Positions 3,370-58,500 of a stretch of DNA of 64,000 bases are shown here, in pieces (within the stretch, counting starts at the first letter, position 1; every line of letters begins with the position of its first letter). Source of the DNA: Sipunculus nudus (Eukaryota > Annelida > Sipuncula > Golfingiida > Sipunculidae); assembly GCA_026874595.1 (NCBI GenBank), contig CM049307.1, forward strand, positions 32,718,862 to 32,782,861, in the 5' to 3' direction. The notes below the pieces were generated by a model. The model saw nothing but the letters and a program-made list of their open reading frames with translations. It had not been told where the DNA came from and did no database searches. Position numbers and translations under genes: made by a program.

Positions 3370-3631
3370 GATATGAAGAAATGTCAGGGCAAAACATTGG
3401 CTTGTGCTTCTGTGAAAAACAGCTGGGCTAGGCAAATGAAAGATGCCCTTTGTTAGACGGGTTGGGAAATTGCCATGGCAAAGTAACCAGTAGTTGTTTG
3501 TCCCTGGCCCCCAGGGTTGGTTTTCATGTGAAATAAACATGTCTGATTGAGTTTATGTGTTTGTTGACAGCCCTTACCCCCGCTGTGATCATGGACTGTT
3601 CCAAGTCGATCAGGTAGCAGGGGGAGCAGCC

Positions 3632-3741
3632 ATGAGCCAGACGATCTCATTAACCATTCAGAGGGATGTACAGCTGCGGTTCTTGTGCCCAGATGACCTC
3701 CCTGAGATTAAGAAGCTCTGCGCAGAATGGTTTCCCATCGA
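3632..3741 (+). CDS. NAA60: NAA60 coding exon 1
   Basis: Acceptor TTGTTGACAG ends at 3570. The ATG lies in the context cagccATGag. The exon encodes residues 1-36 ending CAEWFPIE and is followed by the donor GTAAGT at 3742; phase 2. Confidence 0.9.
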
Positions 3742-6700
3742 GTAAGTAAATCTCTTTTGAACACAGACCCACTGAGTGGATTGGTGAGAAATCACACACA
3801 CACACACACATATATGTATATAAGCAAGAGTGTGTTGATGACAACGCTTACTCATTACAAAGTAAATTGATAGATCTTTTAAAGTACTTCATATTTTCTC
3901 TTGAAGATTAATTTCTGTGTGCAAATAATAAACATTAAAAGAATATATATATTATGAACAGTCCTATACAGCTTGATAAAATATATGGAAAGCTTATGTG
4001 CACTTTATGAATTATTTGTTCCACCAACCATACATTCAATATAACCACTGTTCCAGTATGTGTTCAGTATCTGATATATGATCATAATCTGAGATTGTTT
4101 TACATATGTTCAGCATCTGAGATTATTTTATACTGTCAAGCACAGAACTTTTGTAACTTATATGTAGAGTGGACATTTTTAAGAAATAATTTGTAAGTGT
4201 AGAGTTCTTTTCTGTCATAAATCTGTTATAATTTATTATTATATTTAACTATTGAGATACAGTAGAACCTGTATAGTAAGACCATACATGTAGGACTGGC
4301 CAAAATTGGTCTTATTTCACACATGGTCTTATTAGACAGGTTAGTTATTACCAATGTGAATGCCTTCATTTCACTCAGATTTGATCCTAATAGTCAGGTG
4401 GTCTATTAGACAGGTTTAGTTTTAGATTTTGTCCATTCACACAGTTTAAATGTCTCCTTTCATGTTAAAATAACAAAATTCGAATACGATCTTTACTTAG
4501 ATTGACATTTGACTACAAGGTTAGTCTAGAATTGCACTTGTAATGTTACCAGGATATATATTGTGATATGGTGAATCCCATACGGAGTATTGTGGTATCC
4601 TTTTCATATATCAATATTTTTCAATATTATGTCAAACATTACAGAAACTGATTTATTTTCCCCCACTTCCACGGAACAGGGGACATTGATTTGAGTCTGT
4701 CTGTCTGTCTGTCCCAACTGTCTGTCCGTCCATCAGGTTTTTGTTTCCATGCGATAATTTTCCTAAATATGGTCTGATTTAAGCCAAATTTGAGTCAGTA
4801 ATTAATCTAATGCATATGGGTGGGATTGGTTTTGAAGTGTCTGTTCAAAAATTTTTTATCACCAGCTCCTAAACAAACAAAAATTTTCCCTTTTGTTCTA
4901 AATTCACAACAAAAATTATGAAGTGGAGACATCTTCTGGGAACAATGAAAACTAAAATACAGGCACTTTGACATGTAGAGACATCTTTAGGGGAAAATAA
5001 AAGCAGAAATATATTGAAAAGGCAAGCATGAAGATCACAGGAAGCTAAAATAACAAGAGGTGGAAGAGGAGGACACAAATTACATGAATTTTCTTGTTGT
5101 AATAAAAATAAGGTTTTTAGCTGAGCTGACTTTAAGTCAACTTGGATATACTGAAGGCACTTGGTCCGTCAGCCATCCAGTTGTCTGTTAGCAGGGCACA
5201 AACAATAAATGCAATGGCTAAGGTCATGACCCTGTGCATTCGAGGGTTAGGTAGAGGTACTTGTGAGATGGTCAGGTACAGGTACAGGTACAGGTCCAGG
5301 TACAGATGCTTTTGAGAGTACCTTGGTAAAGGTACACAAAATGTTGTTAAGCTATTCAATGACATTTGAATTTATAATAATTGCATACATCTAAATATGC
5401 AATAATAAAAAGCTAAATTAGAATTGCAGAATATGTTGATAAAGAATTAAGTATTCACTCCATATAATGTCTTCAAGAAAATATATAGGACATGCCTTTC
5501 AACTATTGCTAACCAGTATGCCTCAAGCCCAGCCAGTCCATTCAACATCAAAGGCTGCAAAAATGCAAGTAGTTACCCCTGCCTTGATGAGGTAGCTGCC
5601 CTCACAGGGGCAAAACCTTTATTTGTGTTGTTTATGTTGAGCAGCTACAGGTTGCTGAGTTCAAGACCTTAGCCCTGTGCACTCCTTAAGCATAATTCTG
5701 AGAGCCAATAGATGTGATGTCACCAAGCCAAGCAGAAACCTGCCAGACACCGCCACCGTTTTTCCCCACACCGGTGACTTTACAGAAAAGCCACAGCACC
5801 CACATCCACAAAGGCAAAAGCAGCATACATTACTTTCACTGATCCCAACAGCGAAGACCCAGCTATGCCAATCGAGAGCCGAACATGATCTGTGAAACAA
5901 CAGAGCTTTGGCGAGAGCCATTTTATACTTGCAGTTTCGACCAATTAGACAGTATTAGCAAGTTTTTTCGTCATAAGCCAGCCTGCCTGCACCCTATGTG
6001 CTGTTGTGTTTTGCCTTTTAATATTACTTGTTTTACTTAAATAAGATGTAAAGGTGTATTCTTAATCTTAGTGTAATGAGGCTTTTAAATAACATTTTTA
6101 GCTCAGCTGACTATAAGTCATCTGAGCTATAGTTGTGGTCCATTGTCCGTCGTCCGTCTGTCCGTCCGTCCGTAGATGTAGCATGTTTTGAAACCTTAAG
6201 ACCTAGGAATCCAAAATTCGGCATAATGTTAGATGTCCCCAAGATCTCCTACCAAGCCGAAAACTGGGTCTTTGCGACTTTGTTCCTTTGAGAAATTAAG
6301 GAAAATCTTCAATTTTTTATTAAAAACCTATTTTCACACTTCAGGACTGCCTAATTTCAAAACTACTCATCTGTTTTTCCTCATATTTACCATAAATATT
6401 CCCCTATATAGTTCCTAAAAATTGGCATTCAATTAGATGTCTCCAAAATCCCCTACCATGCCAAGAATTTGGTCACTAGGACTTAATACCTTCGAGATAT
6501 TAATGAAAAACTTCATGTTTCCATTAAAATCCCATTGTTACACTTCAAGACTGCCTAATATCCAAACCACTTATCTGACTTTAATCATATATAATATACA
6601 TATTTTTCTATACATTCTCTATGCACATGCCAGAAATGATGTCAGTATTTCGTAATTGTATCCGCCAAAACGAAGTTTTGCGGATACTATGTTTTTGACC

Positions 6701-9700
6701 GGGTTCCGCCGCCGCCGCCGCCGCCACCGCGTTCGTTTCCGGAGAACTCCTCTGAGACTACTGGACAGATTTTTCCGAAACTTACACAAATTATCGGGTC
6801 ACATGTGAACTGGTGCCTAACCAAGTGACCTTGACCTCTGACCTTTCGTCTTTGCCCAGCGTCCGTTTGTGCGTCTGTTTCCACACATAAACCCATATAT
6901 CTTGGGAACCGTTTGACCGATCCGGAAAATTTTTTTACACAAATGTAGCCCTGGGATAGCTTTATAAAATACACAACAAAAGGTGGCGCCACCTGCAACC
7001 ATGTTTGCACAGTGTCCATCTGTTCATCTGCCTGGGGTTAAAATCACTCATATCTCTGCAGTGGTTTGACTAATTCACCTAAAATTAGGCATGCGTATAC
7101 ATCCTAGATAGCTTTCTCGATTTTATGACAGGTGGCGCCACCTACATTCACGTTAACGCTCCACACATAAACCCATATATCTCGGGAACCGTTTGAACGA
7201 TCCGGAAATTTTTTTTACACAAATGTAGCCCTGGGATAGCTTTATAACATACATAATAAAAGGTGGCGCCACCTGCAACCATGTTTGCACAGTGTCCATC
7301 TGTTCATCTGCCTTGGGTTAAAATCACTCATATCTCTGCAGTGGTTTGACTAATTCACCTAAAATTCGGCATGCGTATACATCCTAGATAGCTTTCTCGA
7401 TTTTATGACAGGTGGCGCCACCTACATTCACGTTAACGCTCCACACATAAACCCATATATCTCGGGAACCGTTTGACCGATCCAGAAAAAAAAAAATTTA
7501 ACACAAATGTAGCCCTTGGAATGCTTTATAACATACACAACAAAAGGTGGCGCCACCTGCAACCATGTTTGCACAGTGTCCATTTGTTCATCTGCCTGGG
7601 GTTAAAATCACTCATATCTCTGCAGTGGTTTGACTAATTCACCTAAAAATTGGCATGCATATACATCCTAGATAGCTTTCTTGATTTCATGACAGGTGAC
7701 GCCACCTACATTCACGTTAACCCTCCACACATAAACCCATATATCTCGGGAACCTTTTAACCGATCCGGAAAAAAATTGTACACAAATGTAGCCCTGGGA
7801 TAGCTTTATAACATACACAACAAAAGGTGGCGCCACCTGCAACCATGTTTGCACAGTGTCCATTTTTTTCATCTGCCTGGGGTTAAAATCACTCATATCT
7901 CTGCAGTGGTTTGACTTTTCCACATGAAATTTTGCTTGTGTACATATCTTGGATAGTTTCAAATAACAGGTGGCGCCACCTACAATCATGTTTATGTGGC
8001 AGAGATCCATTCTAATATTTAACACATGTAACTCTTTATCCCCTTGCCACTCAATCCATGCCTTACTTCACCCTTCCTTCTCTGATTTTGGCGGATACAC
8101 GTAGTCGCTTGTCGACTACCTGTATTCTAGTTGTTTTAAGTTATGGGCCTAAACATAATGCACTTTGTAAAAAATCAAGAAATATATTTACTCCCTTAAC
8201 AAGAGGATTGCTGAAGCTAGAAATTTTTTGTCAGGGATGTAACATTATTTTATCAAGATTCAATTGAATACCCAAAATTAGTTCTGAATTTTTCAAATTT
8301 TACAAGTTATTAGTATAAATATAAAATTAGTACCTTAAATTTTGCCAAAATTTGACCATGGCACGTTTGTTTCCTGTGAGCACTGTTGATATAATTTTCA
8401 TATCATGCACACATAAGGATTTCGGCTTTTTAATTTAGAAAGCTGAAAGAAATTGGCCAAAAATTGTAGCTTTTATTAATGTTTTTATGAGACCATGTCA
8501 GACCTTAGCTCTCCCCAGCCCCTCTTGAGTCACCTGTATGTTGACCTTGTTGACCTTTCATCAAATTATGCACGCTTGATGCGAGGCATACACTGAGGCA
8601 GCCAGGCAGCTTATGGCCAGCCACAGTTGATCCAGGTGTCCAACCCAACTCATCTAGTAGTTTTAACTAATAACATAACAATAAACAATAAATTAATAAA
8701 TTTTTATTGGTTTTTAATAACAAATTAAAGAAAAATAGAAAAGGAATTTGTTAGTTGATAATAACAGGAAATTGACTTGCAGTTACTGATGATATAAGAA
8801 TCTTGTATGGATTGATAGAATGTCACGTATTCCAAATAACGACATGCAGTCACCTATGGTATTTTTCAGTTCAATTTATATGATAAAAAAATAAATCATA
8901 TTATTCATTACTAATCATTAGGGATCATATGAAAGAAATTAATGATAGACAAAGATGCAGGTGATAATATTAATCTAGATTTCTACTGTGTCTAGCATGT
9001 ACATTGATGTGAAATTAGTCCAAAATGAATATATTACATTGATTTTTTTAATATGAATAAAAGCCATAAAACCAGGTACTTATGATCATTATTTAAATGT
9101 GTGAATTTTGTATATTCTAGATTCTCAACATCATTGTTTGGTGAAAACTGAATAAATACCAGACATGGTGCGAATACTTTGCAAATGTATTTGAATATGA
9201 ATATGAATATGAATATGTACTCCATTATAAAATTTCTTGCATAAGAATGGGAATTCAGGTAAAAATGAAAGTATATGAATACCAGTGCAAATACTTTCAA
9301 AATGTATACATGAATGCATTCATGAATATTTTTTTTGATATTATTTTAATAATCATTTCAGTTGTATTTTATTTTAAAAAATCATACGATTCTCTTATTA
9401 TTTTTAATAACAATTATATTTTGGACAATTTGTAATTATTTTTAATAAATAGTTAAACTCTTATATTATATGTTCTGCTTATAAATTATATGGCCAAGTC
9501 AAAATCTGTATGACAATAGCACTCCATTTGTTAATAAAATAAATGAAATCAATCCTCTTCCCTGTCTCCAAAGATACTATCAAAATCATACATAAGCTAA
9601 ACACCCACAACTCATAATACAGCTTATATTTATTTCCACACATAACAAGCATGTGCCTCATTTCTAAATCATATTTTTTATCATATATAACAGCTGGGCG

Positions 9701-12700
9701 CCGTGACCCATGGGTCCCTTGTTTACATAAGAGATAGTCAGACTGGTTGTGTAGCTTGTGCCCCGTGCGTGTAAGCATAATTTGGTTGCATTGTGTTATG
9801 TATCGTGAGCAGTGTTGAGATTAAACTTTGTGCTGGTAAGGGGGTGACAGCTCTGTACATGTACTTGACTGAAGCCTGATTTCCATATAAAGTATCACAC
9901 GTACCTGCTGTACACTTACCAGGTACAGGTTTGCTAGTTACAGGTACAGATACCAGGTACTTCCTGCTCATGACAGCCAGGTAAAGTACAGGTTCACTGA
10001 AATGTGTACCTAGGTACAGGTATAGGTACAGTTACAAGTACCAAGCCCCAATCCTAGTGCATTCTAAGAGGAACAAAAATGATCGTTTGGCCAGAAACTT
10101 GGAAAGAGGTCACCATGACTTAAATATTCTGCGAGTTATGGGGAATTTTGACCACCCCAGAAATGAAGTCAAATACATTAAACTTATCAGAGATACGAAG
10201 TAAGTCTGGTTGGATTGTTCTAAAAACAGGTTTATCAGAAGATCTTGGTGAGCTTTTAACAGAGGACTGGTGGTGCCAAATTTGGGTCATGACTTTCAAT
10301 TTTAGAGTGGCTTGACCATGAATAATACTAAATTTGGTGAAAATCTGATGAAATATTACATTTCTAAAAAAAGGTGGATGTATTGTTACAAAAATGTAAA
10401 AGGTGAAAGTTCATGCATACTTCCATAGTAAGTTCTCATAGTCAAAAACTGGTGAACTTGACCTTGATTATCAATGAGAAACTGGCCATAATTAAGTACT
10501 TTTGCGAACCCTTTGATTTTCAGATTACTACATACAAATTTGGTATGCCCACTATTTCAACCAAGACTTCAGGGAAGTCCCAGAAAGTAAATTTGACTGT
10601 GGCCTATTATGTCCCATCTGTGGAAATATGTGTAGGAACTCCATATCTGTTATATAAGTACTGCCCAAATGTTTTATGCCACACCTGCTATCTTTCACAT
10701 ACTGCTCACCCTATAAGAGGTCGAGAACCCTATTTATATGGAGTTCACAAGGTACAGATCAAGCTCATAGGGCTCCAACATCTTAAGAAAGTGTGTTTAT
10801 GCATTTAAAGCCAAACTGTTCATTCCAAACTTTCCATCTTTCCTGTATAGTTTACTTTCCAAGAAGAGGAAAAAATCTTATTAATTTTAAGGTCAAAGGT
10901 CAAGGTCACAGGACCCTGATTTTTAAAAAGTGGATGCATTTTAAACCAAACTTTTAACCCAGAACCTTCCATCTTTCACATGTGGCTAATCTACCAATGG
11001 GAGAAGAATCCCATCACCTGTGCATTACATAAAAGATGTAAAGATAGTTCTGTAATTATTTTGTCTACAGTTCCAGATAAAACAATGAAAAATCTACAAA
11101 TTTAAATCTGTATGAAATGAAGCCTGGAGCAAAAAATGTCAGGTAAATGCAGGATTCCACATGGGAATAAGTAAGATTGGTCTGAAATTTATTAGTCATT
11201 TTACATAGATCTGTCAGAAGCACTTTTGTGTGATCTTAGTTGAATATTGTGGTGTTTGATGATTTAGTACTGATGACCTAGTGACCTCATTTTGCCAGAT
11301 ACCCTGACAGCTGGTTTGAGGACATCACCAGTAATCCCAAATTCTACTCACTGGCAGCTACCTACAATGCTCGCATCATCGGGATGATCGTATCAGAGGT
11401 CAAACCCAGGATCAGATGTAACAGGGAGGTAGGCAATACTTCATTATAAGAAAAGTATATAGTTATAGGTAATTTTAATTATTCTGCACATTCAGTATTT
11501 TATCATTATATTCACATCTTTTCCATGACCACTCTTCTGATGGTCACTATGTATATTCTAATTTGACGAAGAATCTCTTTTTATAGGAATTTTATTGAAT
11601 TTGGCTACTTGACACAAGTGGCTGTTGTATGGAGTTCAGCACTGGTTGTTATAATTAACAATGTAGCTATTGATTAAATGTATTAAATTTTGATTAATTT
11701 ATAAGCTGAGCATACTTGAATACAAAGAGTTATTCTGCTTTGTCTTTTGTGGATTTATGGACTTAATGTAGTTTGACTGTTATTTTGATCATGAGTGACT
11801 TTTGTTAATTGTAGCCATGAAGTTCTATATGTCAGTTACTCCTTGCTCAATGCAGTTCAATCACCTGTCTATGGATGTTATTGTTAATTCAGGACCAGGA
11901 TATTTTGGCAAAGTCCTACCAGGCTGGTACCCAGGTTGCGTACATCTTGTCCCTTGGCGTTATCACAGACTTTCGTAGGCATGGCATCGGTGAGTTAGAG
12001 GGTTCAATATATTGTGTGGCTGGGATTGGCGAGTCAGAGAGTGTGATATATTGTGTTGCTGTATTTAATAATAAAGTATATTGTCTGCCTTCTCAGTGCT
12101 ATATGTATATGCTATATACTTCTTGATTATATGGATAACATACAAAAATAAAAATGGCAAAACTTAATATAAAGCTACATTGAAAATAAAATAGGTTGGG
12201 TTGTAAATTTCAGATTCTGCCATGCTTTTTAGCAAACCTCTGAGATTATGTGATGGTGTGGCGGCGTTCGGCGTCCGTACGTTAACCAATACTATCTTGA
12301 AACCAGCAAGAATAAGCATCACAAAATTTTATGCAAAAAATAAGTCATCTAAAAAACTCTATCGGATTTTGCTTATTTTTTGGCTGACTACATTTTTCGT
12401 AGATTTTATAGGGAAAAAGCTAAAAAAGCTTTAAAAATCTTCTTCTCCGAAACTGTTCAGATAAATTGTCCAATATTTCAGAGAAGTGATTCCTGGAACA
12501 ATCTCTCTCAAGTTTGTTCAAATGGTTCCAGTTCGGAGATTTTTGGCGGAGTTACAGGAAGTTGAACTTCTGAGGGCAAAAACCTCATAATTTCAGCCTC
12601 TTTCAGCTTAAAATGTTTATGATGAAACTGTCAAGTTGAATCGTTCAATTTTTCAAAAGAATTATCCTAGGAGGTCGTTTTTTCAATCATATCAGAATAG

Positions 12701-15700
12701 ATTGAGTGTGATGATTTTTGGGTGGGCTGTGAAAAGCTTAAGTTGGTCTAATGGCCATTATTATGTCTATTTCAAATTGAGGACTGCAATAAAATGATGT
12801 TCTTCAACAAAATTATTGTTTCAATTATAACTTCTGTAACATTGCACAAAAATTATTCTTAAGTGGCCTTTGTTCAAGTTTACTTGAATGATTTTTGGCA
12901 GAATTATTGGACCTTTAACAATGAAAGGACTGCATCTTTTATTATTCTAGATATTTTGATAAAAAGTTTATGAATACGTCAGCTTGAAAAAAAGCATTTT
13001 AGCCAAAGTCTTTCAGTATGTGTAAACAGATTTACCAACAGGCCAAGATTGTGTCTGTATCTTTAAATAGGTTGAGAAATTGTCAACTGTTTCAGATTTG
13101 GCAACAGATCAAGAGTTCATTCAGTGCAGCCAGATATAGGTCAAGAGTTCAATCAGTGCAGCAAAGCACAAGGCATGTGGTCACCTCATGGGTGACATGT
13201 GAACACCTCATTGGTGATATGCCCCTCAGGGCAGCATGTGGATCCAATCTGTGAGCTAATGCAATGGTGTGGCTACTTTTTCAGATTTGGCAACAGGCCA
13301 AAGGTCAGTCTGGATCTATTTATAGCTGTGGCAGACTGCCAACTGTATCAGATTAGGCAACAGGTCACGAGTTCACTCAGTGCAGCCAGGTATAGGTCAG
13401 GAGTTTAGTCAGTGCAGTAGCTGCATTATATTTATAGCAATGGCAGACTGCCCACTGCATCAGATTTGGCACCAAAGTTCAGCCTGGATCTATATATAGC
13501 TTTCGCAAACCTCAACTGTGTCAGATTATGCAACAGGTCAAGAGTTCACTCATTGCAGCCAGGTGCAGGTCATGAGTTGAGTCAGTGCAGTAGCCTGAGC
13601 CAGCAATTTGTCACAGTTTCCTCGGGGCAACTACCTTTCTCACCTAAGCCTGGTCAGCCCCATGCATCAGACTTGAGGTAAGTTCGATGTATTGGCCTGA
13701 TATTTTGACCTGTCTATGTGTCTTTGATGGCTTTCTCATTCAAAAGACAGGTATCGCCACCTACAATGACTTTTGCACAGTGTATGTGCCTGCTTATTTC
13801 TACAGAGGAATTTAATATATCAGCCTGAAATTGGGCATATTTATACATATGGAATAGCTTTGTTGTATACAAGACTGGGGGTGCCACCTACAATAATTTT
13901 TGCACAGTGTGTGTCCCTGCTTATTTCTCAGGAGGGGTTTGATATAGCAGTCTGAAATTGGTCATATGTATATATCTCTAATAGCTTTGTTGTATACAAG
14001 ACTGGTGGTGCCAGCTACAATCATTTTTGTGTTGTGTGCATCCATGCCAGAATTTCAGCAGTGATGTTTTTGTAATTGTTACTTTTTCAAAATGTTTGAA
14101 TTGTTTTAATATTCATAAAAAGTAATGGTCCAGCGATGAAGCATTATACCTGGTGTATTTCCCAATGCACAGGTTCGCATTAAGCCTGTAGACCTTGTTT
14201 AAGTAATTTACCCATGCAGATTATCTAGATATCTAGACAGCTTGATATCTAGACCATTAACTGAATAGCTCCTCCCATAGGTTTGGTTAAAAATTTTATG
14301 ATGTTATATTTTAAAATGAATATATTTGGTTTATACCATTAGTCAGATAGAAAAGGTAACATGATGCCATACTTATCAGAATCTTCGTTCTGTGGTTTTT
14401 GTTCTTTTACCTTGGCTTGTGTTTTATTAGCGAACCTGTGAGCTTATGCGATGGTGTGGCATCGTACATCATGTGTTGTGCGTCGTCTGTATGTTTACCA
14501 TAGCTATCTCAAAAACGGCAGGAGCTAGTGTCACCAAAGTTTTTGCAAATAATCAGTCATCCGAAAAACTATATCAGATTTTGTTTATTTTTTTAGCTCA
14601 GCTGACTGTAAGTCATCTGAGCTATAGCGATCACTCTTTGTCAGTCATCCGTCCGGCCATCAAGCCGTCCAGCCGTCTGTCCGTTAACAAGGCACAAATC
14701 GTAACCGCTGGATCTGGAATCTTCTTATTTTACATCCAGAGAGGTCCATGAAAAATCTCCATGGAAATAAGGTCTCTGTTACCCATATCCTTCGAGCTAT
14801 GGGGCCCAATTAGTAAAAAATTTCATACCAAAACTTCAATATCTCATTAACTACATCACTTATGGTCATGATTTTTGGCATACATATTGATCATGACATG
14901 TTCCATCAGTTCCTGCGATTTTTTACAAATTTTTGAGACCTTTAAAAATGTGGACATCTGTTAACAGGGCACAAATCATAAAGACTGGACCAAAAATCTC
15001 ATTCTTTAGATTCTGAGAGACCTATGAAAAGTCTCTATGGAAACCAGAAATTAGGTCTCTTTTACCCATATCCTTAGAGCTATGGGGCCCCAAAGTCCCC
15101 CCAGAATAGTCAAAAATTTCATCCAAAAACTTCAATATCTCATTAACTACATCACTGATAGTCATGATTTTTGGCATACATAAAGCATACATCAGAATAA
15201 TGGAAAATTTGGTACAAAAGCTGAAGTATCAGAACAACTAATCCAGAGAACATAATGCTTCTTTGCATGCATATTGACCATTAAGTGTTTTTATTAGTTT
15301 GTGCAGACTGGTGGAGCCACCTGTATGTTTTTAGCTCAGCTGACTATAAGTCATCTGAGCTATAGTCGTGGTTCATTGTCCGTCGTCCATTCGTCCGTCT
15401 GTCCGTCCGTAAGACTGGCACGTTTCGACACCTTGTGACCTACGAATCTGAAATTCGGCATACAGTTAGATGTCCCCAAAATCGAGATATTAAGGAAAAA
15501 CATCAATTTTTTATTAGAAATCTATTTTCACACTATTTGTCCGAAAATGTCCAGCCAGATTGTCCTATATTTCACAGAAATGATCCCTGGAACAATCTCT
15601 CTCAAGTTTGTTCGAATGGTTCCAGTTCGGAGATTTTTGGCGGAGTTACAGGAGGTTGAATTTTGTCATCTGTCCAAAAAAGCATATTAAAATTTAAATC

Positions 15701-17460
15701 TCAGAAACAGCTGGAGCTATCATCACCAAATTTTATGCCAATGTTGGTCACATAGGTCATATCTGAAATTGAGTTATTGGTGGCACCACCTGCATCAGCT
15801 TTTTTGGTTCAGGGTCATCAGTGCCTATATCACACTGAGGGCTACAAAAAACTTTTTCTCTGAAACCATATGGCCAAAATGTTAAATATAGCACAGAAAT
15901 GATCCTAGGGTTGTGCTTTCTGAAGTTTGTTCAAATGGTCTCTGTTCAGTGACTTGGGAAGCTAAATTTAGTCATAGTTACAAATACATGTTTGTGATCA
16001 TGAGAGGCTCCTACATGTTTCATGAGTCCATAAATGTGCACAGTCAACCCAACCACTCTGTTTATATACAGATATTCTCAGAATCAATTTCAGCAGAGCG
16101 CCATGACCGACAGGTCCCTTGTTTCAGAGTAAGATTACTCTTCAGTACTACAATGAAAACATGAAGCAAACTCGAGCATTTATCTGAATATATATATGTA
16201 TTTTTCTTAAATATGAAATTTATGAGAGTGAATGTGATTTACATGTTCTTTTAGCATCTTTACTTTTGGACAACTTGCTTGGCTACTTGACAAATGGTGA
16301 ACATCACCTGTGTAAGGCGGTGTATCTGCATGTGCTGACAACCAACGTGGCGGCCATTAGGTTTTACGAACGTCGCAGCTTTCATCTCCACCACTTTCTG
16401 CCGTACTACTACTGTATCCAGGGGGCGCCTCGAGATGGGTTCTCCTATGTTCTCTATATAAATGGGGGACAGCCACCTTGGACTTTCATATATCCTTTTA
16501 GAATGTTATCTGTTTCATTGATTCTCTTGATTCTTTTGTAATTTTCATCAAATGTGTAAGGATTCTTTTGGTACTCTGGATAAAGCCCAGCAGCTGATTT
16601 GATTGATTTAAAAGTAGAAGGCCCAACTTGGTTCCTGCCAGAGCCTTTGAGGTAATGTGGTGAAATATGATGAGAGATATATGGTAATGCCTTGGCTACA
16701 GATTATGATTTTTGGTTACTCTTTAGTTTTTTGCATGGATAGCAGTCAAGAAAGTTTAAAAGTCATGTAATGCTGAAAATATGATTCCCCTCCTCTTGCA
16801 TTTTAATTGGCAAAAATATTCAGGAAATTGTTACTGCTCAATTATGACAGTATCTCTGTAAATTGCAAAAGATTTAAAAAAATATAGAATGATAGTAGAG
16901 TTATATGCTGAGGATATATATTTTGCATTTTTATGCATTGTTTTTCATTTTTTAGCAAGAATAATAGGATGAAAATCTGTACTAAAGCTTCTACTGTTTC
17001 CATAAAAAAGGAACATTTCCACAGTTATTTTCATTTATGCTATTGAATGTCACATGAAATGGGAATTGTAAACACATTTTCTTGACACAGCATTAACATT
17101 AGCAGAATTAAGATGTAGCTTTAAACATTTTAAAATCTTATACCATTAATTCAAGGTGAACAGTACATACACTGTCTTTTAGCTGTTGCATTTACCACTC
17201 CATGAAGGTTTTATATGACTTTTTTTTTACTGAATATACACTATCCAGTTTAAAGGTCAGTTAAGTTTAAATATTTCTTTTCCAGATATATGTTGTTGTG
17301 CTCCTTAACTGTTTGTACTGACTATGTGAAGCACTTTGGAGAAGCCATTTCCAGACTACAGCCATGTGCTCTCCCACATCTGATCATACGGACATTTCGT
17401 AACATCTGGAATCGTCTCCATCTTGGCAAAGCAGCTACGCACCAGATTCACTTGAGCTAA
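3632..17460 (+). CDS. NAA60: N-alpha-acetyltransferase 60 (NatF), five coding exons
   Basis: GNAT-fold acetyltransferase that in other animals acetylates N-termini (mainly starting Met) of transmembrane proteins at the cytosolic face of the Golgi. Model: join of 3632-3741, 11299-11428, 11893-11989, 16255-16489 and 17319-17460; 714 bp, 237 aa, against 242 aa recalled for human. All splice phases agree (2, 0, 1, 2). The acetyl-CoA loop reads RRHGIA (residues 108-113). Y97 in TQVAYILSLGV and H138 in YLHVLTTN fall at the same numbers as the catalytic Tyr and His I recall for human NAA60. Motif B follows as AAIRFYERR. The C-terminal part DYVKHFGEAISRL plus a basic tail corresponds to the membrane-associating end. 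The start at 3632 is chosen by family length; the exon is open upstream to its acceptor, so an earlier start in an upstream exon cannot be excluded. The last intron is U12-type AT-AC. Confidence 0.95.
3793..3812. repeat. (CA)n microsatellite
   Basis: About nine CA units followed by TATATGTATATA, just inside NAA60 intron 1. Confidence 0.85.
4688..4735. repeat. GTCT-rich tract of a dispersed repeat
   Basis: TCTGTCTGTCTGTCTGTCC followed by TCTGTCCGTCCATC. This is the tetranucleotide-rich segment found near the 5' end of family A-like repeats; no flanking end motifs are recognisable here. Confidence 0.5.
5270..5305. repeat. CAGGTA hexamer tandem repeat
   Basis: Roughly five CAGGTA units with a CAGGTC variant. 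A looser version of the same hexamer array lies at 9905-10045. Probably simple-sequence expansion. Confidence 0.8.
6655..8130 (+). mobile_element. Family B Helitron-like element with 280-bp tandem core
   Basis: The 5' end is a stem TATCCGCCAAAAC-GAA-GTTTTGCGGATA. Near the 3' end, TTTTGGCGGATA at about 8086 repeats the 5' end inverted. It is followed by a stem-loop GTAGTCG-CTTGT-CGACTAC and the terminus TATTCTAG, then host TT. The core holds tandem units whose landmark CCACACATAAACCC recurs at 6881, 7161, 7441 and 7725 (280-284 bp period). Each unit has two copies of the palindrome AGGTGGCGCCACCT. Comparison with family A copies shows the empty site, with no target duplication and insertion between A and T. 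This architecture (subterminal inverted repeats, tandem core, 3' hairpin, CTAG|T) is that of Helitron/Helentron non-autonomous elements such as DINE-1 or bivalve pearl elements. No transposase ORF is present. Confidence 0.75.
6881..7990 (+). repeat. Tandem array, about 280-bp unit, with GGTGGCGCCACC palindromes
   Basis: About four units. Palindromes AGGTGGCGCCACCT occur at 6981, 7130, 7261, 7410, 7545, 7825 and 7968, with a one-base variant near 7695 (GGTGACGCCACC). Spacing alternates near 149 and 131-135 bp, so each unit looks like an older dimer. Confidence 0.9.
9905..10045. repeat. Degenerate CAGGTAC array
   Basis: Recurrent CAGGTACAGGT, CCAGGTAC and TAGGTACAGGTATAGG units. Related to the hexamer array at 5270. 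Confidence 0.6.
10046..10930. other. Intron 1 repeat-like DNA, no gene
   Basis: Contains GAAAGTT/TGACCTTGA/AAGGTCAAAGGTCAAGG motifs typical of an old dispersed repeat. The one open frame here (10413-10808) has no recognisable domain and is probably chance. Confidence 0.4.
11299..11428 (+). CDS. NAA60: NAA60 coding exon 2
   Basis: Acceptor TTTTGCCAG, donor GTAGGC. Encodes YPDSWFEDITSNPKFYSLAA and onward to CNRE; phase 2 in, 0 out. Confidence 0.95.
11893..11989 (+). CDS. NAA60: NAA60 coding exon 3
   Basis: Acceptor GTTAATTCAG, donor GTGAGT. Encodes the GNAT core strand AYILSLGVITDF and the start of the acetyl-CoA loop RRHGI; ends in phase 1. Confidence 0.95.
12229..13690 (+). repeat. Family C dispersed repeat
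   Basis: The 5' end is TTTTAGCAAACCTCTGAG, also seen at 14428 and inverted near 33700. The body at 12960-13580 matches 29430-29770 inverted (for example TTTACCAACAGGCCAAGA). The 3' part has imperfect tandem units of about 120 bp built on CAACAGGTCAAGAGTTCAC / CAGTGCAGCCAGG. No coding potential. Confidence 0.65.
13745..14060 (+). repeat. Diverged 130-bp units related to the family B core
   Basis: Three imperfect units with (G)GTGCCACCTACAAT...TTTTGCACAGTGT and ...TTGTATACAAGACTGG. They share the GCCACCTACA / TTTGCACAGTG landmarks of the 280-bp core but lack the intact palindrome. Confidence 0.55.
14428..16123 (+). repeat. Mosaic of family C with nested family A ends
   Basis: A family C 5' end (14428-14590) is cut by a family A 5' end (GCTCAGCTG at 14596). 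A second family A 5' end starts at 15334. Family C sequence then resumes (about 15540-15660 matches 12450-12570 closely, including TCGGAGATTTTTGGCGGAG). The block ends with a family A-type terminus near 16091-16123 (CAGCAGAGCGCC...GGTCCCTTGTT). Lies in NAA60 intron 3. Confidence 0.6.
16255..16489 (+). CDS. NAA60: NAA60 coding exon 4
   Basis: Acceptor GTTCTTTTAG. Encodes SLLLDNLLGY through YLHVLTTN, FLPYYY and INGGQPPWTF; phase 1 in, 2 out. The 3' end is set at 16489 because ATATCCTTTT follows directly and the join to 17319 restores PPWTFIDYVKHFG, the family sequence. Confidence 0.92.
16490..17318 (+). other. NAA60: U12-type AT-AC intron of NAA60
   Basis: The intron begins ATATCCTTTT, the consensus 5' splice site of U12-dependent AT-AC introns. 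It ends ...TCCTTAAC (17302-17309, perfect branch-site motif) TGTTTGTAC, with AC 10 nt after the branch adenosine. The phase (2+1) and the resulting protein match NAA60. Length 829 bp; contents otherwise unremarkable AT-rich DNA. Confidence 0.9.
17319..17460 (+). CDS. NAA60: NAA60 coding exon 5 (terminal)
   Basis: Begins after the U12 acceptor AC. Encodes DYVKHFGEAISRLQPCALPH, then the basic amphipathic tail, and ends at TAA 17458-17460. Confidence 0.92.
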
Positions 17461-34200: not shown

Positions 34201-37200
34201 TTTACAAATAACTTGTCTGCCACACTTGAAATATTCATATTCTAACAGCTGAGAAAATGCTCTAAATTTTAGAACATAGAAGGTTTGACTTTTCTGATAA
34301 TGGTTTATATTATCTTGATTTAAAAATTTTCAATTAATTTCAGACAACCTAAATATTATTTATTAAAGCATACATGTGACAACAGAGCATCATGTTAAAT
34401 CATAGGTAAAAACACCATGATTTTTTTATTTAGAGTGTTAACTCGCAATATAATTTAAAGGGTATTTAAATTAGAAAATACACATATTTTCTATTAAATT
34501 TTCACCTATAAAACACTCTAAATATCAGAGGAGGCAAAAATTAAAATTTGATTTATGAACATATGTTTAAAACTCCATATAAAGAAAATGGAATGTTTTG
34601 AACCATAAATGGCTGAGAAATATCTACTTATATCAAACTAGTAAAAAATCTTTAAAAGTACAACCAGTTTTAGGAAATCTCAAAGTAGTTGTATACCAAA
34701 TTGTAGAGAATATTCTATGGTTTCTTAATATATACATGTCTCTGTAATTTTGTGTGGCCTTCTTTGCAATTATTTCTTTGTCAAATATTAGTTTCATGAT
34801 TTTTTTTTCTAAACCTGGGATGACAAGGGGCTGTCATGTCTTTGTTTACTCAAAACCCATTCAGTCTGTTAAAGAGAGTAAAATAAAATAGTCATATACG
34901 AAATGGGATACTACAAGTTTTATTTGAATGTAGAGGTGCAAGTTTTGTCCATTTCTGTAAACAACTGCATTTGCCAATATATGGATATATAGAAATACAG
35001 CTAACAAATGTGAAAACTATCAACTCTTACCTTCTGATTCATAAAATTACGTCACATACACTAAACCAAACCCCTGTGCAAGCAAATAGTTTTGCTGGGG
35101 TGAGGCCAGATGTTGTCCTTGTGACTGAATATAAATGACTGGTTCATACCTGATTTTCTGAAATCTTGTAAAACTGTGAAAAAGGTATTTTGAGGTTTGG
35201 CTGCCACTGGACATTCACATGAGTTTGTATGGTTTGTCTTTACGCTGGAAATATTAGCTGCTGAACATTCAGTGCCTATCTGATCACTCGGCTGGTTTTT
35301 TGGCAGGTCACATGACTCAGAGGTCAAAGTTGAGGTCATTTGATAATCTGATGATATCTGTGATGGTCCACACTTATTACACATCTGAGAACATTCTCCT
35401 GAGCCTGTTGTTTGAGTTTTCCTTTTTTCCTCAATCATGGTAAAATAGGTGGATAGAGGATTGTCTCCAAATTCAAGACCTACAATAAAAAGAAATTCAT
35501 CTAATACATTCTATCTTTGAGAAAAAATTAATTTGTAGATAATGAAATAAAGTTTGGGAAAGGCATAATGTCACAAATTAATGAGTTTGGTACGTTATTT
35601 TTACCGAGTGCTTTGTGGGACGAGGATATGACTTCCAGTGTAGCATATCTAATCTCCTTCATACAACTAGGTCTGACCTCCAGGGTTGCGATTTTAATAT
35701 GCATGATGTTTTGCTAACAAAAACACTGAGGAAGTCATAGTCGCAATGCTTTAGGCAGCCTAAGACCTACATCACAACAGTTGCAAATATTCTTTCGAGT
35801 GACTGGGGGTGCTGATATGTACAAGTTATGTGCACATAAATTTGACAGAAAGAAGACCATTGCTTAGCATCTACATTCACAAACTTTCATTGGGGGGGGG
35901 GGGTGGCAGTTGCAGGAAGGAGGCTTCTTCCAGTGCCCCCCTGTCGTAGAAAAGACAGCCTTATTATTAAGTTGTCTGATTCCAGCTTTATCACATCTAT
36001 AATTGAAACTAACACATCTGTTATACTGGATAACACATCTGTAATATTTGAAACTAGCACATCTGTAATACTGGAAACTAACACAGAAGTAACATTACTG
36101 ATCAATATTCAACATGTTATCAACTTATTGAGCAATTTCAAAGAGAGGATGATGTGACTATCTTTTATATCTAATACATTTTGCATTTAGGAAGGTAATG
36201 TTCATGCAGCCACATCAACACATTGCAGACAAGCTAGGCAACAATCTGTTGATTTCTTTACTCTTTTTCAAACTTCCAATTCTCTATTATGTGTGGGTTT
36301 ACCTGTAAGTTTTTCCCATATTTAACCTATCTACTGGGTGATGGAATACAGTATGTATGTTCATGTAAGCCTTTAACAGTGTCATGTGCACATACCTTGT
36401 TTCAGCTTAAGCTTGACAAGTTTCATGGCAGCTCGTGCATCCTCCGTGGGGTCATGACCTCCAGCATCACCCTGTATGGTCTTGCTGAAATACAGTGTAT
36501 ATGTGGTAAAACAGACCTCCTGGTTGAGCAAAAGTGTTACATCCATGTAATTATACTGATCATATTGAATCAAAAATGTATAGAAGTTATGATGTGAGAT
36601 TAAGGGTGCTTTTCCATGTACGCGTTTTGCAAGCGTTTGCCGCGCGGCTGCCGCGTGGCGAAAATCCAACCAGTTAAAAAGTCGTGCTATTTCCATGTAT
36701 GCGGTTGCCGCGCGGTAAACGCACGCGTCAGTTTTGGAATCCAGCAGTGCTGGATGGGAATTCTGCCTTAATGACGTCACATTTGGGGGTTTCCCGTACT
36801 CGTGTCTTTAAGTCCGTTCAGTTGTGTCAGGAAGGCATGCGATTGCCGCGCGGCAAATGCATACAAAATGCTCACATGGAAAAGGACTGGCCGCGCGGCA
36901 AACGCACGGGTGGAAAAGCACCCTCATAAGTAATACTAGGTCCACGTAGATAAAATCTAAGAATATTTGATGAATGACTGAATACAAAATATATAGATTA
37001 CATCATGATATGTAAAGACTTATGGTTTATTACTTTCATGTGTTGATCCCGAACCACCATCAAGACCACATGTGATTGACAAATTGACATTTGTTGTTGA
37101 TGTGACAGTGGCAGGTAGCACTAATATGACAGACTGCATGTGATTGACAGATAGACAGTTGTTGTTGACGTGACAGTGGCAGGTAGTGCTGATATGACAG

Positions 37201-40200
37201 ACTGCATGTGATTGACAGATAGACAGTTGTTGTTGACGTGACAGTGGCAGGTAGTGCTGATATGACAGACTGCTGGTGAATGACAGATTGACAGTTGTTG
37301 TTGACATGACAGTGGGAGGTAGTGCTGATATGACAGACTACATGAGATTGACAGATGACAGTTGTTGTTGACATGACAGTGGCAGGTAGTGCTGATATGA
37401 CAGACTACATGTGATTGACAGATAGACAGTTGTTGTTCACGTGACAGTGGCAGGTAGTGCTGATATGACAGACTACATGTGAATGACAGATTGACAGTTG
37501 TTGTTGACATGACAGTGGCAAGTAGTGCTGATATGACAGACTTAATTTGATTGACAGACAGACAGTTATTGTTGACATGACAGTGGCAAGTAGTGCTGAT
37601 ATGACAGACTGCATGTGACTGACAGATAGACAGTAGTTGTTGACGTGACAGTGGCAAGTAGTGCTGATATGACAGACTGCATGTGACTGACAGTCAGACA
37701 GTTGTTGTTGACATGACAGTGGCAGGTAGTGCTGATATGACAGACTGCATGTGACTGACAGACAGACAGTTGTTGTTGACATGAAAGTGGCAGCTAGTGC
37801 TGATAAGGCAGACTGCATGTGATTAACAGATTGACAGTTGATGTTGATGTGACAGTAGCAAGTAGTGCTGATATGACAGACTACATGTGACTGACAGATA
37901 GACAGTTGTTGTTGACGTGACAGTGGCAGGTAGTGCTGATATGACAGACTGCGTGTGACCGACAGATAGACAGTTGTTGTTGACGTGACAGTGGCAGGTA
38001 GTGTTGATATGACAGACTGCATTTGATTGACAGATAGACAGTTGTTGTTGACGTGACAGTGGCAGGTAGTACTGATATGGCAGACTGCATGTAATTAACA
38101 GACTGACAGTTGTTGTTGACATGACAGTGGCAGGAAGTGCTGATATGACAGACTGCATGTGATTGACAGATTGACAGTTGTTATTGACATGACAGATAGT
38201 GCTAATATGACAGATGTGGAAATAATGAGGTCCTGGTTTTCCCAAAATGTAAGTATATCACATGAACTACTGCAGTCATTTAAATAAAGTTAACAAAACA
38301 TTCACTAACATAACATTACTAAGCAGGTGTATTAAAATAATAATTATAGAATATACTAGTTTGGTATATTAAGGGAACTTACCCAAAGAAGAAAGAGATG
38401 AGCTTCTTCAGCCCTGTTTTAGAAGATCTGGACCAGGAAAGGTTGTATATAACACTGGTATCAATTACATATGGATGAAAGAGCTACAAAATAAAGAAAA
38501 TATATAATATTATTCTCAGAGTTGTAAATGTGCAGGGACATGTGCAAGATAAAGTTAAAAAGGTACACAGTACCGAAATAATCTTTTAACAGTCATAACA
38601 AAAGATGATAAATATATAACAGATTTGTATGACAAAAAGAGCTTGAATATACCAATATAATCATTTCATAATCCCATGACAAGTGTTTACAAAATGAAAA
38701 GGGAATATCACAGCTGAAGAGCTAAAGTTAAATTGGAAAATATTCAGTGCCATCAAGACCAGAGTGAAGCACTTTGTATAAAAAGCAGAACATTTTATAA
38801 ATAATTGGAAAATACCTGCAAATTACAAAGATGTTTATTTAAACAGTGACTGAACAGCTTATATTCTTTTATTTTCAAAGACATCATCACAGGGTTGCAG
38901 TAAGAATACGGTATGTATTGCACCACTTTCTTGGATTCTGAGTTAGGTTCACCAAGTTACTGTCTGGTTTTCCCAGTAACCACCTTTCATTAGAAACTGA
39001 TGTGGCAAATTAAAACATATCTTCAAAATTTAAAAGTCCATGCTTAACCCTGTTGTTTCATAGTGTAGTATGAATCACATTTTATTTTAGTTTAGTTAAA
39101 TATCAAGTATAATTAGAAATCAAATTTATGACTAAGTCAATTGATTTTACAGTATTTAGTTTTCTCTCACATGTTACTGTGTCAATATTTGACTAGTCCT
39201 AACTTTGCTTTATTTTTAAAATGATTTTACCTTTAAAGCCAAGAGATCATTGTTTAATGACTGTCCACACCAGATGGCGTCACTAGGCAGCAGCTTTCTG
39301 AGTGCCTGCTGAACATCTTCTAAACGTGTGGTTACATCCTTCAGCTTTTCTTCCGTAATTCCACTATATCTGTAAATCAATGCAGTACTGAGGAAAAAGT
39401 CTATTTCTTGGATTAAAAAAAAGGTATTGAAACCCTACAACATAGCTATGCAGCTATGCTGTAAGTTCATGTATCATTTAAACTCATGCTATTCTTATGG
39501 GTTATAAATGATCTCAAGGCAAATAATGTAATACTGAATGCCTTAAAAAAATACAAAGCAGAATAAGGGCCACATACTATCATTTTAAATCATCTACCAT
39601 TACCCTCTCCTAAAAAGACATTCAATGCTGAATTAATCAGTGAACAAAGAAAACAACATGGAAAATGTGAAGTAATTATTGCATATATTTTTTAAAATTT
39701 ATTAAGAGGTGTTTCAGCTAATGGATAATTAGAACACTAACCTTGTTCAGAAAATAGTATTTTATTATGGCATCAAGATATTGTGGATTGTGATAAAGAT
39801 AGAGTACTGGAGGCTTTTAAAAACATATATTCAATAACAATATCAACAAAACTTCAATACTTTCAGTTTAAGATATTACACAGAATTCTTGCATTAAATC
39901 TATTTCTGGTAAAAGCTGGTATTAAAGAGCACGAGTACTGTTCCTTTTGTAAAAAAGAAAAGGAGACACTGTTACACATTTTTCATGACTGTAGTTCTGT
40001 GAATCAGTTATGGCATGATGTATGTAAGTGGTTAAAGAATTTGGATCTTCCAAACACCCTTTCACATATAGTGATACTTCTTAATGTAAGTACAGATCAG
40101 TTGCTGGATAAAGTTATATTGCTTGTAAAGTATTATATATATATATTACAAAATGCAAAGAACAATCATTGTCAATTAACAGTGCAGTTAAACTGTTTAA

Positions 40201-52567: not shown

Positions 52568-55500
52568 GTATGGGATGTTTTAACCAATTATATTATCACT
52601 TAACTATACAGTTTAAATTTATATCACCAAACTAATTGCTATCATTACTATTAAAATAGATGAACATTTTAACTACATGATTACCAATGCTACCACTGTT
52701 TTATTGAATGAGTGTCTGCAATGACCTCCACCCCCCCCCCCCCCCCCCCATTTTATCAACCATATTCCTAAATCATGAATTATGCTGATATTGCAGGAGT
52801 TGCTATAAAATCCAGACTAGTGTTCTAGTCTTTTAACATAGTATTTCTTTTTTTTATCCCAAGATACTTAATTCTGATTCACTCTTAATTCTGCTTTACC
52901 AAACAGTAACAGAGTGCCCTATATATATGGTTTTTAGGTATAAAATATATCTTACAATTTTGACAAATCTATTGTGACTGTCATATACAGTGAAAATACA
53001 AGCTGTGGTTTAAAAAAATGCAATATAAATTTAAAGGTTTTGAACTATGGGATTAAAATGTATGTATCTAATATATTCCAACTATTTTCACTGTATATAT
53101 TTCTTTCAATGACTTGTACTGTCTATTTTGATTCTCTTCTGTTGTGACAAAGAAGAACTTTTTAGGAATCTATATATTGCCTTTGACATTTGAACAGGGA
53201 ACTGGGATTCATAAGGAAAAGGTCTTCCAAAGGTTCATCTGATTCTCTGGCCAAAAGACTGAAGAGAACTGGTATGTATTTAATAAGTGTAATGATAACT
53301 TTGATAATGACTTTGGTTATTCTGAACTAATTATTGCGGAAAATTGGCTCAATATGCTTGAAGATTTTGCAGAGTGTTTTTATATAACATGTTTGTAGCT
53401 TTTTTTTATCAGTGACAACATTCTGGTACTCTTATTACTCATCGGGGAGTTTATTTTTAAAAGCCTTGGAAGCATCTCACAAATTTTTGAATATTTGGTG
53501 TCTTTAAAAGCTTACATTTCGCTATTCTGTACATGCTCAATTATGCAATATAAATGTGTCCATCATTATCTGCAAAGCATTACATACAAATTTCATTTTC
53601 TTTTAAGTGAATCATAAGGAACAGTAGGCCACATGTTAATTAACCTATTATCATCATTCTCTGGCACTTTATAAGCTAGGAAGCTTCCCTCATTTGTATT
53701 TTTTAAACATTTACTTTATTTCTTATGTTTCATGATATTATGTTGAGCATACTTTCTGTTTCAGAGCAGATATTCTCTTACTTGATCATCATTGATTTTG
53801 AATCAACATGTTGGCAAGATACAAAACATCGAGGCCAGGAGATCAGTAAGTGCACAGATGAGGAACAATTACTTGCCATTTCTATTAACAGTTATAATGT
53901 ATGGTGATTATTAATATGTTGAAAGTACAAAAAATAAATAACTTAGAAATCAGAGCACAACACATTTTTTTTTACTATTGATAAATTTCATCACCAACTC
54001 AGTGCCAGTTTTTGGGCGTATAAAATCAGATGCATACTTCAAATTAATTTCATACTAAACATAACTAGTCTTAGATAATTGGAGCAAATGATCATCAGGA
54101 TTATGCAAAATCTAGGTAATTTGTTTAGACCTGTATAATCTAATCTTTTTATTATTTCCAGTTGAATTTCCAGCTGTGCTGCTCAACACAATGACAGGAG
54201 AGATAGAGAGTGAGTTTCATCATTATGTACTTCCACAAGAGTACCCAGTACTCAGCAGTTTCTGCAAACAGCTGACAGGTATTTCTCAGGTGGGTGCCGC
54301 CAGATGTATAGGTATTTCTGGGTGAGTGTTACCAGATGTACATGTGTTTCTTGGGTGGGTGTTTCAAGATGTCCAGTTATTTCTCAGATAAGTGTTACCA
54401 GATGTAAAAATATTTCTCAGGTTAGTGTTACCAGATGCACAGGTATTTCTCAGGTGGTTGCTGACAGATGTACAGTTATTTCTCAGGTGAGTGTTAGCAG
54501 ATGCCGTGCATGATGTTAACCTTTGGACTAATTTACCTTGGGTGGTCAAGGAGCAGAGTGTCCATGACTGACAGGTCTCAGTCAACAGACACCCTGAACA
54601 AATAAGCCCATCACAAGGCAGTGTGTTTTCAACTGACCACTGGCTATCAGCCAATCACAGGCAGCTATTTATAGTGACTCCGCATCAAAGCTGGTGACAT
54701 TGAGGGTTGGAGTTCTCTTGGATTAGAGCTCTTCAAGCTGGAGGTCAGCCCAAGCCCTGACCCCAGCTCCTGGTGACCATTTTACCAGGGTTGGTTCAGA
54801 CTGTGTCTGCTACCTGGTGTTGCCACCCACTTTATACAGCAGTAATTTTTTACAGCTAGGTATGAATATTTTAATTTAATGTTAAACTTTTAAATTATAT
54901 TTCAGTTAAATTGTTGTTTTATTTCTTTGAATTATGCAATTAAGTACACATTGTCTGGCCCCAGTTTCCCCCCAGAACTAAAAAGCAAACTACAATTGGC
55001 AAGCTTGTGCCTTAGGCTTAGGAGATTAGCACTACAAGAAAAACCCTGTTTTATAAATTGCTTATTTTAGCTAATTCTGGGTCCTCAGCATCAGTATACA
55101 ACCTTTGGGGCTTCTATGTTGTAAAGTTCTGCTATTTAAGTGATCTGCTTAAAAATAAAGTTAGCAAATGCTTAACTAATCAGGCAATGCATGGGTTGCA
55201 TTAATTGTATCCGCCAAAACAGAGTTTTGCGGATACTATGTTTTCAGCTGGTCGCCGCCGCGGCCGCGTAGGTGTCCGGAGAACTCCTCCGTAACCGCTG
55301 GGCGGAATTTTCCGAAACCCGGGATTATGTTCGGGTCACATGTGAACTGCTGCGCCCCGATTTTGTTTTGACCTCTGACCTTTCCTCTGCGCTCTGCGTC
55401 CGTTTGTGCGTCTGTTTCCACACATAAACCCACATATCTCGGGAACCGTTTGACCGATCAGGAAAATTTTTTTGCACAAATGTAGCCCTCGGAGAGCTTT

Positions 55501-58500
55501 ATAACATACACCAAAAATGGTGGCGCCACCTGCAACCATGTTTGCACAGTGTCCATCTGTTCGTCTGCCTTGGGTTAAAATCACTCATATCTCTGCAGTG
55601 ACTTGACTAATTCACCTGAAATTCGGCATGCGCAAACATCCTGGATAGCTTTTCTGATTTTATGACAGGTGGCGCCACCTACATTCACGTTGATGCTGCA
55701 GACATCCAAGCTCATATCTCGGGAACCGTTTGACCGATCAGGAAAATTCTTTTGCACAAATGTAGCCCTTGGAGAGCTTTATAACATACACCAAAAATGG
55801 TGGCGCCACCTGCAACCATGTTTGCACAGTGTCCATCTGTTCGTCTGCCTTGGGTTAAAATCACTCATATCTCTGCAGTGACTTGACTAATTCACCTGAA
55901 ATTTGGCATGCGTATACATCCTGGATAGCTTATCTGATTTTATGACAGGTGGCGCCACCTACATTCACTTTACGCTGCAGACATCCAAGCTCATATCTCG
56001 GGAACCGTTTGACCGATCAGGAAAATTCTTTTGCACAAATGTAGCCCTTGGAGAGCTTTATAACATACACCAAAAATGGTGCCGCTACCTGCAACCATGT
56101 TTGTACAGTGTCCATCTGTTTGTCTGCCTTGGGTTAAAATCACTCATATCTCTGCAGTGACTTGACTAATTCACCTGAAATTTGGCATGCGTATACATCA
56201 TGGATAGCTTTTCTGATTTTATGACAGGTGGCGCCACCTACATTCATGTTTACGCTGCAGACATCCAAGCTCATATCTCAGGAACCGTTTGATTGATCAG
56301 GAAAATTTTTTTGCACAAATGTAGCCCTTGGAGAGCTTTATAACATACACAAAAAATGGTGGCGCCACCTGCAACCATGTTTGCACAGTGTCCAGCTGTT
56401 CGTCTGCCTTGGGTTAAAATCACTCATATCTCTGCAGTGGTTTGACTAATTCACCTGAAATTCTGCATGCTTATACATCCTGGATAGCTTTTCTGATTTT
56501 GTGACAGGTGGCGCCACCTTCAATCAAGTTTACGCTGCAGACATCCAAGCTCATATCTAGGGAACTGTTTGACCAATTGGGCCAAAATGTTGCATGTGTA
56601 TAGTTCTCACAAAGCTCTTTATCATACGCTTAACTGGTGGCGCCACCTGCAACCCTTTTTTGCACAGCGTCCATCTGTTTGTCTGCCAAGGGCAAAAATC
56701 ACTCATATACAATATAGTGGTTTGACTTATCTGCCTTAAATTTTGCATATGTATACAACTTGGACGGCTTTCTGGATTTTTTGGTAGGTAGCGCAAGCTA
56801 CATACACAATTTGGCTGCAGACATCCATGCTGATATGCAACACTTCACCCGTTCCACTCTGATTTAGGCGGATACAAGTAGTCGCTTGTCGACTACCCGT
56901 ATTCTAGTTTTTGAAAGTTTTTCATCTTAAGGCATTTCTTTTGTGCACTAGAATAGGGGCTTTATATAAATTTAGGCCCCTCTTTATTTAAGAGAACAAT
57001 GCATTACTTGCTATAGCTTGTACTGGTTGTATATATAAGTTCTATTCTTCAGGCATGATATCACAGGAAAGTGTCACATATAACATAAGTATAAATTCAT
57101 TTAAACAAGCTATATCAGTAAGTTTCTTTTCTTTAGCTATGAAGTGTATTATACATTATACAACAGTGAATGCTTGAATGATCTTCTTCTATATTTAGAA
57201 TCACTGTATAGTTATCTCACTGTATACATTTTACAGGAAATCCTACTGTATTTAGGGAATATTCATTGTGGATAAACCAGTATACATGTATTTCTTAGAC
57301 GATGTTACCAGATCTGCAATTTATCCTCTGATGTGTGTCACCAGATGTACAAGCATGTGGTCATGTGCCAAGTCCAATATTAGCAAGGATGGGTAATTGA
57401 AAGATGGTGAAAATACATATTTTTCTGTTTTAAATCTAAAAGATTGTAGGGTGCAATGGTGAATGTTTAAAATATGTAAATTAAAACAACCACCTCTCCT
57501 TTTGAAAGGTATTTTGAGAATGAAGCAACATTTGTATTTAAATACATTTTACACTATGGATATACTTTCATACAGGAAATGGTGGAACAAGGAATCCCAC
57601 TGTCCACATGTCTAGTACAGTTTACAGGCTGGCTAAGAAAACTAAATGAAGATAAGGGCATTCAATTCACCCAGGACAGTCCAAAGAGGTGTACCTTTGT
57701 TACCTGGTCCGGTGAGTTGACCATCTTGGTATGCCTGGTATACCATAAATAACACTAATTTATCTTTACTGAAATATAATCCAAGGCAATGGAACAAATA
57801 TGTTATAAATTGATTAATCTAGCATATATTATATATTAAGGAACTGTTGATATATTCTGGAACTGCAGTTTATACAAGTTATCCGTTTCCTTTTTGATAT
57901 ATTAGACACCTTTTAGTTGTTTTGTGCTATAGAAATATTAAAAGTAAACAATAGCTCGGCCATCTTGGGTTTTGTATTATAAAGTGGGCAAACTCTTGGG
58001 TAAAATGCAGATATTTCTATAATATATATTGCTAGCTTTATACTGCTGTTGAAGGTTTGTTAACCAAATATCCTTCATTGTAACTATATTTAATTTGTCA
58101 TTGGTCAGAGACATGCAGAATTTCAATCCACATAATGATTTTACTGTAAATAGTGATTTTTGCTTCTCCCTCAACCTTACAGATTGGGATCTGGGTGTGT
58201 GCCTTGAATATGAAACCAGGAGGAAACAGATCAGAAAACCAGCAGCACTCAACAGTTGGGTAGACCTGAGAGCTACATACAGGGTACAAAAAAAATAAGT
58301 AAATCAACTTTTAAAGGGACCTAGATTCACATACCAGTCATGTTTAATGTACATGAAGTATAGAATTTTATTTTTAAAATATTATGGTATATCTGTCAAT
58401 ATTTTATTCAAAACTGTTTGCATACTCTTCTACACAAGTTAAAAATAGCTTGCACCAGGTGTGAGCATGCAGAGGGCAAATCAGGCATGCCACCTGGCAG

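Follow-up and report, generated by a model that had tools for sequence, protein, structure and literature searches.

One of the AT-AC minor introns already catalogued in animals lies in a gene listed as FLJ14154, which we take to be NAA60 (also NAT15). Table 2 of Lin et al. 2010 enters it in row 13 as fly CG18177, 'FLJ14154 hypothetical protein', with an AT-AC intron that is the fourth of four, and scores that intron as U12 in both fruit fly and human (PMC2831892). Intron positions are described there as having been compared via protein alignment, with the 16 human orthologues sharing the subtype of the corresponding fly introns (PMC2831892), and a separate source gives NAT15 as the human orthologue assigned to CG18177 (PMC2952598). 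Naa60 protein is reported to be reduced in the fly miso mutant (PMC12084885), and knockdown of RNPC3, a minor-spliceosome protein, is reported to alter NAA60 splicing in human A549 cells (PMC12332006). The Lin et al. table also lists two introns of other genes that bear on the present case: that of prospero/PROX1 (row 15), an AT-AC U12 intron with U2-like sites nearby that is recorded in the fly as a twintron, and the U12-type AT-AC intron of PHB2 (row 16; PMC2831892).

The DNA analyzed here, referred to as the window, is a stretch of 64,000 nt from the genome of Sipunculus nudus. A complete NAA60 gene occupies positions 3632-17460 of its + strand, where five coding exons (Table 1) combine into a frame of 237 aa plus a stop. 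The first three coding introns have GT-AG ends. The fourth and last is, with a probability that we put at about 97%, a conserved U12-type AT-AC intron, a reading drawn from the DNA sequence. By homology the gene is NAA60 (NatF), a Golgi-bound N-terminal acetyltransferase. The protein includes a GNAT domain (PF00583, 57.4 bits, Pfam), and its best PDB match is human NAA60 (5hgz, E 3.8e-89), which aligns without gaps to query residues 11-218, a span that takes in the NAA60-type C-terminal extension. Exon 1 itself probably starts near 3571, behind a CAG. A retrocopy was also sought, as one could reveal a spliced NAA60 junction without RNA; in a protein search of the genome no second copy or retrocopy was found, all 5 matches belonging to the gene in the window.

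Table 1. Coding exons of NAA60 and signals of its last coding intron (window coordinates)
Feature	Position	Strand	Remarks
NAA60 coding exon 1	3632..3741	+	starts at ATG; genome match 93% over residues 1-40
NAA60 coding exon 2	11299..11428	+	joined frame; genome match
NAA60 coding exon 3	11893..11989	+	joined frame; genome match
NAA60 coding exon 4	16255..16489	+	ends ...PPWTF + AT, phase 2
NAA60 coding intron 4 of 4, AT-AC, U12-type	16490..17318	+	829 nt, phase 2
U12-type 5' splice site ATATCCTTTT	16490..16499	+	exact consensus over 16490-16498; U11/U6atac pairing possible
AG preceded by a run rich in pyrimidines; U2-like decoy acceptor ahead of the branch site	17284..17285	+	
U12-type branch site TCCTTAAC	17302..17309	+	likely branch A 17307 or 17308; U12 pairing possible
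AC 3' splice site	17317..17318	+	sequence, join enumeration
NAA60 last coding exon	17319..17460	+	IDYVKHFG to stop TAA

The window also contains repeats and isolated open frames. Arrays of a 280-bp tandem unit with GGTGGCGCCACC lie at 6880-7916, inside NAA60 intron 1, and at 55433-56836, about 47 kb apart and comprising 3.7 and 5.0 copies, respectively; because units taken one from each array align at 91% mean column identity, the two arrays are assigned to one repeat family. A 68-bp tandem repeat (16.6 copies, 90% matches) fills positions 37069-38195, and the long - strand open frames that overlap it are likely not genes. Two + strand frames encode recognizable domains. That at 39783-40253 matches PF13966, a zinc-binding domain found in reverse transcriptases (41.4 bits), and probably represents the remains of a retroelement. 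The other, 452 codons at 59919-61277, matches PF06839 (57.1 bits), a zinc finger of the GRF type, and may be one exon of a gene of the DNA-repair type.

The 5' splice sites of U12-type AT-AC introns follow the consensus ATATCCTTT, and the branch site TCCTTAAC sits roughly 8-15 nt from the 3' end of the intron. NAA60 intron 4 opens with ATATCCTTTT and finishes with TCCTTAACTGTTTGTAC, set between exon sequences ...TGGACTTTCAT and TGACTATGTG..., just as the initial annotation had described when it proposed an AT-AC intron with minor-spliceosome 5' and branch sites at this place. The donor consensus is matched exactly at 16490-16498, the branch site is likewise an exact match, and the distance of 10 nt claimed between the branch adenosine and the terminal AC is what one counts between A17308 and 17318, where the intron ends. 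U12-type introns are described as tending to avoid phase 0 (PMC10639083), a bias that the phase 2 of intron 4 fits.

Taken by itself, each of these motifs occurs at chance frequency across the window. The word RTATCCTTT is present 4 times against 1.73 expected, a count reached in 8 of 100 shuffles, and TCCTTAAC N6-14 AC is present once against 1.05 expected, with at least one occurrence in 60 of 100 shuffles. The other RTATCCTTT words begin at 4595, 29274, and 45283, the first of them within NAA60 intron 1, whose own donor is GTAAGT. What is not chance is the positioning of both motifs at the two bases demanded by the protein reading; for a donor and a branch site to fall together at these two fixed, protein-required places, an estimate from mononucleotide composition gives a chance of about 5e-11.

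The demand made by the protein is a precise one. Joining 16489 to 17319 restores PPWTFIDYVKHFG within the complete 237-aa frame, where human NAA60 reads PPWTILDYIQHLG. To see how many other joins could serve, all GT-AG, GC-AG, and AT-AC pairs were enumerated with 5' sites from 16440 to 17199, 3' sites from 17000 to 17344, an intron length of at least 60 nt, and the C-terminal end kept. This produced 28 open in-frame joins (8 GT-AG, 2 GC-AG, and 18 AT-AC), and within the enumerated range only one of them, 16490/17318, gives exactly 237 aa, which bears out the earlier claim that this AT-AC pair is the unique fit. Two other joins both keep DYVKHFG and differ from this length by no more than four residues. 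The AT-AC join 16490/17309 yields 240 residues, but its AC sits within the branch-site motif; the GT-AG join 16449/17265 yields 241 residues at the cost of VLYINGGQPPWT, and its donor scores -6.1 bits. The join 16505/17285, the GT-AG pair named in the initial annotation, gives 253 aa from a donor of -2.0 bits, its insert of 16 residues being close to the 15 or so that had been predicted for a GT-AG alternative. All GT-AG and GC-AG joins were rejected on protein length, and the GT donors on strength as well: on a scoring matrix that is not fitted to the host species, the best GT donor among the enumerated joins reaches 0.0 bits (at 16538), compared with 7.3, 9.0, and 9.2 bits for the donors of NAA60 introns 1-3.

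There is one feature that could favor a U2-type event, and only one, the pyrimidine tract before the AG that ends at 17285. Its pyrimidine fraction is 0.75, as against 0.50-0.69 at the 3' sites of introns 1-3. The tract may enter into the story in two ways. In the first, the U12 splice would be the main one, and the 17285 AG with a weak inner donor would act as a fallback or regulated alternative, an arrangement reminiscent of a twintron. Open in-frame alternatives do exist for such use, the fly prospero intron furnishes a recorded precedent, and the altered splicing of human NAA60 on RNPC3 knockdown may point the same way; set against these are inner donors so weak that we regard the arrangement as rather unlikely. 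In the second, the major spliceosome would remove the whole intron through a nested GT-AG pair, 16505/17285 or 16538/17285, and NAA60 would gain 16 or 27 residues. Either join keeps an open reading frame and would profit from the same tract, yet the two donors stand at -2.0 and 0.0 bits on that matrix beside the three strong ones of introns 1-3, the inserted residues have no counterpart in human NAA60, and the matching U12 donor and branch site would be left unexplained, which together make this alternative highly improbable. That the locus is a pseudogene, its boundary immaterial, is scarcely credible given a 237-codon frame open over five exons, consensus-like sites at introns 1-3, and its standing as the only copy found in the genome.

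Excision of intron 4 as a U12-type intron would call on the minor-spliceosome RNAs, and the check for these that accompanied the initial annotation came out in its favor. Matches above the Rfam cut-offs are present in the genome for U11 (108.7 bits), U12 (two sites, 118.6 and 117.2 bits), U4atac (88.4 bits), and U6atac (two sites, 100.5 and 97.8 bits). On the protein side, PDCD7 matches are present, along with a single match to zf-U11-48K, which is weak evidence because the model also fired in 1 of 14 control genomes. The predicted pairings were computed with a single copy each of U12 and U6atac, out of two apiece. U11, through its 5' end TAAAAGGG, is predicted to pair with the NAA60 donor at -8.5 kcal/mol, a value equaled or bettered by 26 of 2000 random words from the window. 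For U6atac at the same donor the prediction is -7.6 kcal/mol (100 of 2000 words pair as well), and for U12 at the branch site, with one bulged A, it is also -7.6 kcal/mol (85 of 2000). Energies of this order are mildly unusual for the window and lend the U12 reading weak support.

In the established pathway, recognition by U11 and U12 is followed by the replacement of U11 by U6atac and then by joining of the exons. Applied to NAA60, U11 would recognize the donor ATATCCTTTT by base pairing, and U12 would do likewise at TCCTTAAC, leaving the branch adenosine bulged; U6atac would then take the place of U11 at the donor, and the minor spliceosome would ligate 16489 to 17319. We infer the use of that junction in RNA from the NAA60 gene and its splice signals, the single join that gives the family-length protein, the snRNA genes, and the PHB2 intron of the same genome (see below).

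The position of the intron within the protein deserves comment. Intron 4 splits codon 191, and in human NAA60 the GNAT domain is placed at residues 13-182 and the Golgi-binding helices at 190-224 (PMC10937998), so that, by this alignment, the intron separates the catalytic domain from the C-terminal membrane-binding helices. Reading through from exon 4 (window 16470-16541) yields IYPFRMLSVSLILLILL and then a stop, a strongly hydrophobic tail. Given that no coding intron follows this one and that it falls at the boundary between catalytic domain and membrane helices, it is conceivable that slow minor splicing serves as a switch, with a retained intron swapping the Golgi-binding helices for the short hydrophobic tail, and intron retention would then shift the location of the enzyme. 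We consider this very unlikely. T-rich introns often read as hydrophobic, and since intron 4 is itself T-rich (38.5% T), the tail may well be due to chance. A more practical consequence concerns annotation: a gene model restricted to GT-AG boundaries would miss the 16489/17319 junction and harm the C-terminal membrane anchor of NAA60.

How, then, does the locus compare with the described systems? PHB2, likewise on record as carrying an AT-AC minor intron, served as the positive control and was the sole control gene tried. In the same genome it contains an AT-AC U12-type intron of 980 nt (G000:C15, L012 4207-5186) that begins with ATATCCTTGT and finishes with TCCTTAACTTGTTTAC. The two introns are alike in their ATATCCTT donor, TCCTTAAC branch site, and AC end, and differ in the gene that they interrupt and in length (980 nt versus 829). 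With the prospero/PROX1 twintron, NAA60 shares an AT-AC U12 intron that has U2-like sites nearby; the nested U2-like pair in NAA60 differs in that its donors are very weak and nothing suggests that it is used.

The closest likeness is to the fly and human orthologues, and on the initial annotation's question of whether the orthologous NAA60 intron is U12-type in other animals, the literature offers an answer for these two. According to the Lin et al. table, the intron of fly CG18177 (Naa60) is of the U12 type with AT-AC ends, as here, and the human orthologue is given the same U12 subtype (PMC2831892); it is listed as intron 4 of 4 in the fly, and the Sipunculus nudus intron is coding intron 4 of 4. 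Moreover, human NAA60 intron 5 precedes c.338 (c.338-1; PMC10937998), and the site of coding intron 3 in the window, after CDS nt 337 and before nt 338, is equivalent provided that the two proteins are numbered alike, as their alignment suggests if the single additional residue of the PDB chain (243 versus 242) is taken into account. The species are different ones, and the comparison is made through intron count and the neighboring intron 3 rather than through the codon at the U12 site. Because the intron count agrees and the preceding intron occupies the place of the human one at c.337/338, we infer that intron 4 very probably shares a common ancestor with the intron of fly and human. Among other animals, molluscs are described as having comparatively many minor introns (PMC10639083). 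With an intron of this kind on record for NAA60 in fly and human, the present one is an ordinary case of conservation and adds no new mechanism; what the window offers is a clean example, in one more animal genome, of a deeply conserved AT-AC minor intron.
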